Positions 5,875-19,793 of a DNA stretch of 64,000 nucleotides are shown here, piece after piece. The notes under the pieces are model-generated. The model was not told where the DNA came from and made no database searches. It saw nothing but the letters and a program-made list of their open reading frames with translations. Source of the stretch: Exiguobacterium sp. s124 (GTDB lineage: Bacteria > Bacillota > Bacilli > Exiguobacteriales > Exiguobacteriaceae); contig NZ_JACSKH010000002.1 of assembly GCF_018617485.1 (NCBI RefSeq), positions 1 to 64,000 of the forward strand, read 5' to 3'. The stretch's first letter is position 1. Every line of letters starts with the position of its first letter. Made by a program: the position numbers and the translations under genes.

Positions 5875-6993
5875 TTACACGGATTCTGTTTCGACTTCAC
5901 CTTGTTTCACGTGAAACACTTTGGCTTGTTGAATGGTTTCGTGTGCGATTCCATCAATATTTGTTGTCGTCAAAATCGTTTGTACTTTTCGTCCCATCGT
6001 ATCGAGTAGATGGGTTTGGCGATGATCGTCAAGTTCAGATAACACATCGTCTAATAACAAAAGAGGATATTCGCCCACTTCTTCATGAATCAATTCAATT
6101 TCAGCTAGCTTCAATGACAAGGCAGCCGTTCGTTGCTGACCTTGTGAACCGAACGTTTGAACGTTTCGATCGTTTACGTACAATTCAAAATCGTCACGGT
6201 GCGGACCAAATAAGGTCACACCTCTTCGTCGTTCGTTCTCTCTTATTTTATCAAACTTTTGACGATACGTTTCAAACATCTGTTCTTTTGAGAAACGTTC
6301 TTTTTGGAACGTGTCAGAAACGTATTGAATCGTCAGTGTTTCTAACTCTCGTGTAATCCCTGAATGAATCGGATTGGCCCATTTTTCGAGTTGATCAATG
6401 AAATGATAGCGCCTCATCACAATTTTCACGGCGAGTTCAATCAATTGGTCCGTCAACACTTCAAGTAACGTCTCATCCCCACCCTTTGTGGATAACTGCT
6501 TTAATAAGGCGTTTCGTTGTTTTAACGTTTTCAAATATTGATTGAGCTCGTGTAAGTACACGGGACTGACCTGACCGATTTCCATATCTAAAAATCGCCG
6601 TCTCCCTTGTGGACTGCCTTTGACGATGGCTAAGTCTTCAGGGGCGAACAAGACGACGTTAAATGCGCCGACATAGTCACTGAGACGACGTTGTTCTAAA
6701 TGATTGAGCTTTGCTTTTTTTCCTTTAGGAGAAAATGAGAGACTCTGCACCGATTCGCCGGTACGCTTATGAATCCGTCCTTCGATACTTGCGGCATCAG
6801 CTTCCCAACCGATCAATTCTCGGTCTTGTGTCGTCCGATGCGACTTTGCGAGCGCAAGTACGTAAATCGATTCGAGAAGATTCGTTTTTCCTTGGGCATT
6901 CTCACCAATTAGAACATTCGTCTGTTCTGAGAAATCTAGCTCGAGGGTTTCGTAGTTGCGATAATTTTGCAATCGGATCGACTTTAAATGCAC
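5875..6993 (-). CDS. recF: Recombination mediator RecF
   Basis: RecF is an SMC-like ATPase that loads RecA at gaps with RecO and RecR. The Walker A motif is GENAQGKTN near residue 35, and the C-terminal signature and Walker B ([26 protein letters not shown]) are present. An open frame extends 19 codons further upstream, but GTG at 6993 is the likely start. It gives the canonical beginning (M)[14 protein letters not shown], has GAGGG a few bases upstream, and lies directly after the yaaA stop, so the two are translationally linked. The last codons carry a perfect parS site (5903-5918). Confidence 0.95.
5903..5918. promoter_or_regulatory. parS centromere site (perfect)
   Basis: The 16-base palindrome TGTTTCACGTGAAACA matches the Bacillus parS consensus at every position. 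It lies inside the 3' end of recF, about 4.2 kb from the DnaA-box array. It would load the ParB encoded at 19.0 kb. Confidence 0.93.
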
Positions 6994-8672: not shown

Positions 8673-10052
8673 TTAGTTTGAAAGCGCCTTTTTCAACGTT
8701 TGAATCGTCTCTTGCATTTCCACATCATTTTTCAGAAGCGTACTAATTTTCTCATGCGCATGAATAACAGTCGTATGATCACGCCCTCCGAACTCTTCCC
8801 CAATTTTCGGCAATGAACTCTCTGTCATTTCTCGAGACAGGTACATTGCGATTTGACGTGGGAATGCTAACGTTTTTGTACGTTTCTTCGAGTTCAATTC
8901 TTCTACTTGAATGTTGAAGTGTTGACCGACAACTTCTTGAATGTCACGAATGACAATCTTTTTCGCTTCTTGGACTGGCATGATATTATGAAGCGCTTCT
9001 GCTGCTACGTCTGGGTCGATTGGTCGCCCAACTAGTTTTGCGTAAGCGACAACGCGTGTCAATGCCCCTTCTAGCTCACGGATGTTCGTATCGATTTGAT
9101 TTGCGATATAAAGCATGACCTCGTTTGAAATATCGAGACCTTCAGCAGTCGCCTTTTTACGAAGAATCGCAATCCGAGTTTCAAGGTCAGGTGGTGTGAT
9201 GTCCGTAATGAGTCCCCACTCGAAACGTGAACGCAGACGATCTTCTAACGTCGGGATTTCTTTAGGTGGTCGATCACTTGAAATGACGATTTGTTTCTGA
9301 TCATTGTGTAGCGCATTGAACGTGTGGAAAAACTCTTCCTGCGTTTGTTCTTTCCCGGCTAAGAACTGAATGTCATCAATGAGCAATACATCGATATTCC
9401 GATAGCGATTGCGGAATTCCCCAGTTTTGTTGTCTCGAATTGAGTTAATGAATTCATTCGTAAATTTTTCAGACGAGACATATGCAATGCGCGCTCCTGG
9501 TTTTTGAGCTTTTACATAATGACCGATTGCATGCATCAAATGCGTTTTGCCGAGTCCGACTCCCCCATAAATGAATAGTGGGTTATATGCACGTGCCGGC
9601 GCTTCAGCGACAGCTAGTGATGCGGCGTGGGCAAATCGGTTCCCCGATCCGATGACAAACGTCTCAAAGATATATTTGTCATTCAGCTGTCCGAGATCCC
9701 CTTCCTCTTTTGAAGGTAATGGTAAGGGCTGTTCTCTTGTTTCCGTCACGGCAATGGATTCGTGTGACGATCCATCAGCTGGAGCATACTTGTGTGCTTG
9801 AGATTCTTCAATAAAATGAATTTCGAGCTTGTTGTTCGTAATTTCTTCGACCGTATCTTGTAAAAGTGACAAGTACTGTCGCTCTAACCATGTAACGATA
9901 AAACTGGCAGGTGCCGACACAACGAGTGTCGTTCCCATCAATGATATCCCTTCGGTTGATTTCAACCACATGTCAAAACTAGCTTTTGGAGTTCGTTCCT
10001 CTTCTTCAATTACAGATAAGACGTTTCTCCAAATCTCGCGAGCATTCTTCAA
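8673..10052 (-). CDS. dnaA: Chromosomal replication initiator DnaA
   Basis: DnaA binds the origin boxes and melts DNA to start replication. The AAA+ Walker A is GGVGLGKTH, Walker B is [10 protein letters not shown], and the domain IV DNA-binding signature is [15 protein letters not shown] near the C-terminus. The start is most likely TTG at 10052, giving 459 residues beginning (M)[11 protein letters not shown], because AAAGGAGG sits seven bases upstream. A longer GTG frame from 10073 would place the ribosome-binding site inside the coding region. DnaA boxes lie on both sides of the gene, so autoregulation is likely. Confidence 0.97.
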
Positions 10053-10129
10053 TGAAAGACCTCCTTTACTCACATGTTTGGTAAAACTTATTCACACGAT
10101 ATACACATACACTATTTTATAGTAGAAAC

Positions 10130-18015: not shown

Positions 18016-18031
18016 CGTTTCACGTGAAACA
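18016..18031. promoter_or_regulatory. parS centromere site (15 of 16 matches)
   Basis: CGTTTCACGTGAAACA matches the parS consensus except for the first base. It lies between the rsmG stop and the terminator, just upstream of noc and parB. A parS next to the parB locus is common in this order. Confidence 0.9.
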
Positions 18032-18089: not shown

Positions 18090-18974
18090 TTGAAGAATAG
18101 ATTTGCGAAATTGTTCGGTGTGAATCGAAAAGATGAAGTTGCCGTGACGCAGATTGCGGAAGTTCGAGCGGACGACACGGTGCAGGAGCTCTCGTTGTCA
18201 CGATTGCGTCCGAACCGATATCAACCGCGTAAAGTATTCGAACCGGCAAAAATTGAAGAGTTGGCAACGACGATTTCGGAACATGGACTGCTTCAACCGA
18301 TCGTGGTTCGAAAGGCAGACGGGGACTGCTATGAAATCATCGCAGGGGAGCGCCGTTTCCGAGCCGTGAAATCGCTTGGCTGGTCGGCGATTCCGGCAAT
18401 TGTTCGCGATATGGATGATGATACGACGGCTGCGCTCGCATTGATTGAAAACTTACAACGCGAGCAGTTGAGTCCGATTGAAGAGGCGGAGGCGTATGAC
18501 CGGTTGCTCGCCTTGAACGGATTGACGCAAGATGCGTTAGCGAAGAGTTTAGGGAAGAGCCAGTCTACGATTGCGAACAAGTTGCGACTGTTGAAGTTGC
18601 CTGAGGACGTGAAGCAGTCGCTTCGTGATCGTCGCATCAACGAGCGACACGCCCGTGCACTCTTGCCATTAAAAGAAGAGGGGTTACAGCTCCAAGTGCT
18701 CGTGGAAGTGTTGGAACAGGATTACAACGTCAAAGAGACTGAGGAACGAGTCGCCTTTTTGACAACACCAATCGAAGAAGAAAAACGTAAGCCGAAAAAG
18801 CAACGTCGTCGAACGAAGAGTTTTGCGCGTGATACACGAATCGCCATCAATACGATTCGTGACTCGATCGATTTGATTGGGAAAACAGGGATTGATGTCC
18901 AAACTGAAGAAGTAGACGAAGAGGAATTTGTTGAAATTCGAATTCGCATCCCGAAAGCGCGGCCTCAAAAATGA
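18090..18974 (+). CDS. noc: Nucleoid occlusion protein Noc
   Basis: Noc is a ParB-family CTPase that binds its own palindromes and the membrane to keep FtsZ off the nucleoid. The 294-residue protein begins (M)KNRFAKLFG, matching the amphipathic membrane-targeting helix of Bacillus Noc. The CTP-binding motif is GERRFRAVKSL near residue 87. The helix-turn-helix region GKSQSTIANKLRLLKLP follows at about residues 154-170. The start is TTG at 18090 with AAGGGGTG upstream. Two strong Noc-binding palindromes occur in this window, at 21815 and 43306. Confidence 0.93.
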   Translation: MKNRFAKLFGVNRKDEVAVTQIAEVRADDTVQELSLSRLRPNRYQPRKVFEPAKIEELATTISEHGLLQPIVVRKADGDCYEIIAGERRFRAVKSLGWSAIPAIVRDMDDDTTAALALIENLQREQLSPIEEAEAYDRLLALNGLTQDALAKSLGKSQSTIANKLRLLKLPEDVKQSLRDRRINERHARALLPLKEEGLQLQVLVEVLEQDYNVKETEERVAFLTTPIEEEKRKPKKQRRRTKSFARDTRIAINTIRDSIDLIGKTGIDVQTEEVDEEEFVEIRIRIPKARPQK

Positions 18975-19010
18975 GTCCGTGCTTTTTCATACGATGAAGG
19001 AGGTTTGTAG

Positions 19011-19793
19011 ATGGAACGATTAGCTTTAAAATTCATTCGCCCAAACCCGAACCAACCACGTAAACAATTTGAGGTGGAAAAGCTAGAAGAATTGCGTCAG
19101 TCGATTGAACGGTATGGTGTGTTGCAGCCGATCGTTGTTCGAAAAGCGACCGGGTACTATGAGATCATCGCCGGTGAAAGACGATTCCAAGCGGCAAAAC
19201 TCGCCGGTAAAGAAGATATTCCCGCTTTAGTCGTCACGGCGGACTCGGATCGCGTCATGGAGTTGGCATTGATTGAAAACATTCAGCGGGCCGACTTGAA
19301 CGCCATCGAAGAAGCAGTCGCCTACGAGCAATTGATGCAGACGCTCGGACTGACGCAACAGCAACTGGCAGATCGGGTCGGAAAAAGCAGAAGTCATGTG
19401 ACGAACAGTTTGCGCTTGCTTCGTTTACCGAGCGCGGTCCAGCACGCGGTCATGGTCGGGGATTTGACGATGGGTCATGCACGGGCGATTACAGGCATGA
19501 AATCGGAACAGGCGATGGAACAGATTGCAAAACGGGTGATTGCTGAGCACTGGACGGTACGTCGACTCGAGCGTTACTTACAAAAAGAGCGCACAGCAAA
19601 AAAGACGCTGAAGCAATCGAACGCAGATATCGAAGCGGTCGAAGCGGTGCTTGCAGAGCGTCTTCAAATGGATGTGTCGATTCGTCCTCGCCGAAAGGGC
19701 GGGGTCTTAGAATTAAAGTACTTTTCACAAGACGATTTAGAACAACTACTTACGCTGTTGTCTCCTCAAGACTTTGACTCGTCCCGTGACTGA
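19011..19793 (+). CDS. parB: Chromosome partitioning protein ParB (Spo0J), lacking the ParA-stimulating N-terminus
   Basis: ParB binds parS, slides as a CTP clamp and recruits SMC to the origin. The 260-residue protein has the CTP motif GERRFQAAKLAG at about residues 53-64 and the helix-turn-helix GKSRSHVTNSLRLLRLP at about residues 123-139. It begins MERLALKFIRPNPNQPRK, directly at the core. The usual 20-residue N-terminal peptide (LGKGxxALF type), which activates ParA, is absent. A TAG stop lies in frame immediately before the ATG, so no longer start is possible. AAGGAGG precedes the ATG. No parA (soj) lies between noc and parB. Confidence 0.95.
   Translation: MERLALKFIRPNPNQPRKQFEVEKLEELRQSIERYGVLQPIVVRKATGYYEIIAGERRFQAAKLAGKEDIPALVVTADSDRVMELALIENIQRADLNAIEEAVAYEQLMQTLGLTQQQLADRVGKSRSHVTNSLRLLRLPSAVQHAVMVGDLTMGHARAITGMKSEQAMEQIAKRVIAEHWTVRRLERYLQKERTAKKTLKQSNADIEAVEAVLAERLQMDVSIRPRRKGGVLELKYFSQDDLEQLLTLLSPQDFDSSRD

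Follow-up and report, generated by a model that had tools for sequence, protein, structure and literature searches.

The parB gene near the replication origin of Exiguobacterium sp. s124, a member of a rod-shaped, non-sporulating genus, directly follows noc with no soj (parA) gene between them, and the ParB that it encodes lacks the N-terminal peptide that activates ParA. The CTP-binding motifs, helix–turn–helix and dimerization domains of ParB are retained, as are parS sites, SMC and Noc, and soj and the peptide have been lost together repeatedly in the Bacilli. In our view it is very probable that soj and the peptide were lost and that a core ParB was kept as a clamp and SMC loader.

Organization of the noc–parB locus

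The window, which is the whole stretch of 64 000 nucleotides analysed (G000:C2:1–64000), contains the replication origin of this 2.82 Mb genome. The genes from rnpA to rsmG are on the plus strand and are followed by noc and then parB. Downstream of parB there is a 211-residue open reading frame on the minus strand, followed by mscS-like and ychF-like genes. The relevant features are as follows.

5903–5918, no strand assigned: perfect parS site TGTTTCACGTGAAACA in the 3' end of recF, near dnaA–dnaN–recF–gyrB
8673–10073, minus strand: dnaA, with dnaN, recF, gyrB and gyrA also on the minus strand
18016–18031, no strand assigned: parS-like site CGTTTCACGTGAAACA with one mismatch, between rsmG and noc
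18090–18974, plus strand: noc, nucleoid occlusion protein, TTG start (TIGR04285, 364 bits against a cut-off of 315)
18975–19010, plus strand: 36 bp spacer at the position of soj in Bacillus, with AAGGAGG and an in-frame TAG at 19008–19010
19011–19793, plus strand: parB/spo0J without the N-terminal ParA-activating peptide (ParB_N, HTH_ParB and ParB_C from Pfam; Spo0J alignment)
C2:97216: third parS site

The initial annotation placed parB directly after noc with soj missing, and this was borne out: the last base of the noc stop codon is 18974, parB starts with the ATG at 19011 just downstream of the Shine–Dalgarno sequence AAGGAGG, and the 36 bp between the genes contain no soj. The span of 18975–19793 that it gave requires correction, as only 19011–19793 is coding and the remainder is the intergenic spacer. 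The two genes adjoin in all 38 genomes of the order, which represent two genera. The N-terminus of Noc, MKNRFAKLFGVNRK, is similar to the membrane-targeting helix of the B. subtilis protein.

All three parS sites are on the origin contig C2, two of them inside the window around dnaA, and a reversed control pattern gave zero matches. The site at 18016–18031 lies some 60 bp ahead of the noc start and is present between rsmG and noc in every genome of genus g1 among the matches listed. We note that its first base is C, A or T in these genomes and that the core of the palindrome is kept.

The ParB protein and its N-terminus

ParB is a protein of 260 residues with the domains ParB_N, HTH_ParB and ParB_C in that order. 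Alignment with Spo0J locates the CTPase C-motif GERR (GERRFQAA) and the P-motif ENIQR, and the helix–turn–helix and C-terminal dimerization domains are retained. The core is 44% identical to that of B. subtilis Spo0J. Against the Noc equivalog model TIGR04285 the protein scores 234 bits, under the cut-off of 315, and it and Noc are the only two ParB_N proteins in the whole genome. The closest solved structure is PDB entry 6sdk, a Spo0J chain that itself starts near residue 20, so that a ParB truncated at almost this point folds as a core. SMC is also encoded in the genome (1079 bits).

The N-terminus of Spo0J is MAKGLGKGINALF and that of the window ParB is MERLALKFIRPNPNQPR; the alignment starts at about residue 23 of Spo0J. 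The ParB start is 12 residues ahead of the NPxQPR core, and the LG[KR]G ParA-binding motif is absent from this N-terminus, in agreement with the earlier claim that the ParA-stimulating peptide is missing. In 30 Exiguobacteriaceae loci the distance from the noc stop to the NP of NPxQPR is 72–85 bp, which leaves no room for soj or for the peptide, and a purine-rich ribosome-binding site precedes the ParB start. The in-frame TAG before the ATG, which had been taken to exclude a longer protein, was confirmed at 19008–19010. An in-frame stop in this position occurs in six of the 30 loci; in the others the upstream frame is open over a variable length, yet encodes no LGKG-type motif. A long upstream start is ruled out by the 72–85 bp spacing. 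Two genomes in which the ParB match begins closer to the Spo0J N-terminus (the Soj-less G224 from residue 3 and G002 from residue 7) were rejected as candidates for a retained peptide, as neither has an LGKG motif and the extension is attributed to chance.

Search for a chromosomal ParA

It had been proposed that a Soj-type partner encoded elsewhere on the chromosome would overturn the reading of ParB as an orphan. When B. subtilis Soj was used as the query, neither this genome nor the 37 others of the order yielded a chromosomal Soj. The best chromosomal match per genome has an E value of ∼1e-14 to 1e-17 with 24–35% identity and corresponds to MinD and the like; genuine Soj proteins elsewhere in the class score 1e-100 or better. 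Stronger matches in genomes of the order sit on small contigs. The nearest relatives comprise MinD, FlhG and BY-kinases as well as plasmid ParAs that have no ParB-type partner. A PF13614 search of the s124 genome, with the matches named by reading their sequences, returned MinD, FlhG, two BY-kinases, an ArsA-like protein and a plasmid ParA on the 38.5 kb contig C12. No other protein of the genome matches Soj as well as this last one (E = 2.4e-21). It shares 99% identity with ParAs from Exiguobacterium plasmids, and the neighbouring gene encodes a 124-residue protein without a ParB_N domain.

A chromosomal ParA-like gene was observed in genome G009 (contig C2; L144:1512–2390). It encodes 292 residues and is followed by a small partner gene; there is no ParB beside it, and it looks like a gene of a mobile or defence island.

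Comparison across the Bacilli

Among 151 genomes drawn evenly from the class, Soj (threshold 1e-100 or better) is present in 122 and absent from 29. The latter comprise 12 Exiguobacteriaceae, nine genomes of one Staphylococcaceae genus, six of one Streptococcaceae genus and two other assemblies. These two assemblies, G152 and G153, were rejected as Soj losses, since they gave no ParB match at 1e-50 either and are regarded as assembly gaps. Two families were sampled further, one assigned as Staphylococcaceae (f10) from gene content, known biology and named Macrococcus loci and the other as Streptococcaceae (f25) from gene content and known biology. Soj was found in 16 of 71 genomes and three of five genera of the former, and a Soj of chromosomal grade in three of 67 genomes of the latter. 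The earlier remark that Staphylococcus lacks ParA is correct, and the same is true of most Streptococcaceae.

The ParB match begins at Spo0J residue 1–4 in Soj-positive genomes and generally at residue 15 or later in Soj-negative ones. We read the ParB N-termini of 110 loci, 80 of them fetched from the class, Staphylococcaceae and Streptococcaceae sets and 30 from the Exiguobacteriaceae. The peptide is present at all 49 loci with soj (three as LGQG or MGRG variants) and at none of the 61 without it. In an independent named collection of 80 loci, 79 have soj and a recognisable motif (degenerate in seven), Macrococcus and Macrococcoides among them. The remaining one, Salinicoccus carnicancri, has neither, as judged from the locus only. 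The N-termini track the presence or absence of soj without exception in both sets, as expected if, as had been suggested, loss of the partner and loss of the contact peptide go together. The gene order in Salinicoccus carnicancri (L148:829–5582) is rsmG–noc–parB–mscS–ychF, the same as in Exiguobacterium, and apparently arose by an independent loss in place, in a different lineage.

A tree of the ParB core requires at least three changes of soj state. Genus g83, which lacks Soj, clusters with Soj-positive Staphylococcaceae in this tree; g83 and the Soj-less genus g11 of the same family have in common a derived, divergent metI/metC-like neighbour of parB, and for this reason we count them as one loss. 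At least three lineages, and probably four, have then lost both soj and the peptide: Exiguobacteriaceae, g11 with g83, most Streptococcaceae and, probably, Salinicoccus. A phylogenetic sign test gave agreement in three of three pairs (p = 0.25); with three or four independent events such a test is unable to reach significance despite a perfect association. A Fisher value on loci ignores relatedness and was not counted as evidence.

We also considered whether ParB evolves faster after the loss of ParA. The distance between the two Exiguobacteriaceae genera is 0.46 for ParB and 0.33 for Noc, and Soj-positive pairs of similar Noc distance have a mean ParB distance of 0.41 (SD 0.05), which leaves no clear excess. 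As ParB is not clearly faster than Noc, there is no clear sign of relaxation beyond the N-terminus.

Proposed mechanism and alternative explanations

ParB binds parS, forms a clamp in a CTP-dependent manner, and then slides and recruits SMC; its N-terminal peptide contacts ParA (PMC7333895; PMC12462528). We suggest that an ancestor of the Exiguobacteriaceae lost soj together with the first ∼22 codons of parB, which would have encoded the ParA-activating peptide. The remaining core ParB would bind the origin-proximal parS sites, close as a CTP-dependent sliding clamp and recruit the SMC condensin; conservation of the CTP motifs, the DNA-binding domain, origin-proximal parS and SMC makes this the most likely activity of the protein, as judged from its sequence. 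Noc and Min would take care of division-site control, and the origin would be segregated by SMC and bulk forces, with no transport driven by ParA. We infer that the partner was lost and that the peptide then went unselected. The route in Exiguobacterium may have been a single deletion, from the 3' end of noc into parB, that removed soj and the peptide at once. In Staphylococcus and Salinicoccus, by contrast, ParB has a longer N-terminus without the motif, which is more suggestive of erosion following loss of the partner.

Another P-loop ATPase, namely a CpsD-like BY-kinase, MinD or FlhG, could have replaced Soj by way of a different surface of ParB. Genes for two CpsD-like BY-kinases, MinCD and FlhG are present on the chromosome, and in S. 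pneumoniae CpsD is a binding partner of ParB (PMC4574921). However, the genes for BY-kinases, MinD and FlhG also occur where Soj is kept, and unencapsulated pneumococci are viable without CpsD; we consider such a replacement, which has no direct support in the Exiguobacterium genome, to be unlikely. The combined form, in which ParB is kept for SMC loading and an unrelated ATPase (a BY-kinase or MinD) contacts a new surface in place of ParA, appears a little less likely still.

It is highly improbable that a plasmid-borne ParA acts on the chromosome in trans. The ParA on C12 does match Soj better than any other protein of the genome and is nearly identical to known plasmid ParAs, but its neighbour lacks ParB_N, several genomes of the order have no ParA match above the MinD level and the contact peptide is absent from the chromosomal ParB. 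We give almost no credence to an artefact, whether a longer ParB start that was missed or a soj lost in one assembly only, as the same arrangement is found in 38 genomes of two genera, with the Shine–Dalgarno sequence upstream. A sequencing error hiding an upstream start, which had been raised as a caveat, is excluded by the spacing in the 30 family loci together with the lack of a chromosomal Soj in all 38 genomes. Loss of soj and the peptide, with retention of the ParB core as a clamp and SMC loader, is the reading that we prefer.

Comparison with known systems

The B. subtilis Soj–Spo0J–parS system has a similar locus (rsmG, noc and parB) and the same parS consensus, and differs from that of Exiguobacterium in having soj and the Spo0J peptide. 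S. pneumoniae and S. aureus have ParB–parS and SMC without ParA (PMC7333895). The pneumococcal system resembles that of Exiguobacterium in the short N-terminus just before the core and in having parS near the origin. In contrast, the soj-less Streptococcaceae sampled have no noc beside parB, whereas in Exiguobacterium noc is directly upstream and MinCD is kept. S. aureus Spo0J/ParB likewise lacks the LGKG peptide, with Noc and SMC kept. In Soj-less staphylococcal genomes, however, parB is away from noc with the metI/metC-like gene upstream, and the motif-free N-terminus is variable and mostly longer; Exiguobacterium instead has an in-place deletion.

A 2025 survey in PNAS found the ParA-binding motif to be strongly enriched in ParBs near parA and orphan ParBs to be widespread (PMC12704722). 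The Exiguobacterium protein is like these orphans in its ParB–CTPase fold and canonical domains and in having neither a parA partner nor the motif, but its gene is still at the ancestral locus beside noc. As the general rule is already published, Exiguobacterium is an added lineage more than a new rule. The genus is not mentioned in the main text of that survey, and no report of it as a case of ParB without ParA was found in the literature searched. The Bacilli provide a natural experiment in which, in three or four lineages, the loss of ParA is paired with the loss of exactly its contact peptide on ParB, whereas the CTP clamp, parS sites and SMC are retained. This argues against any major role for the peptide apart from ParA, and for SMC loading as what keeps ParB under selection. 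Exiguobacterium, which has intact Noc and Min and a parB at its ancestral locus, would be a useful model for ParA-free segregation outside cocci.

parS sequences on plasmid-like contigs

We note that in the sister genus several plasmid-like contigs contain 16-mers that match the parS consensus, in some cases close to a parA gene of the contig itself: G019:C2 (131672–131687 and 1999–2014; locus L137), G019:C3 (37854), G020:C3 (84490 and 89909) and G021:C2 (94480). No plasmid ParB_N protein scores above the family cut-off in these three genomes, and the chromosomal ParB of the sister genus may bind the parS-bearing plasmids.
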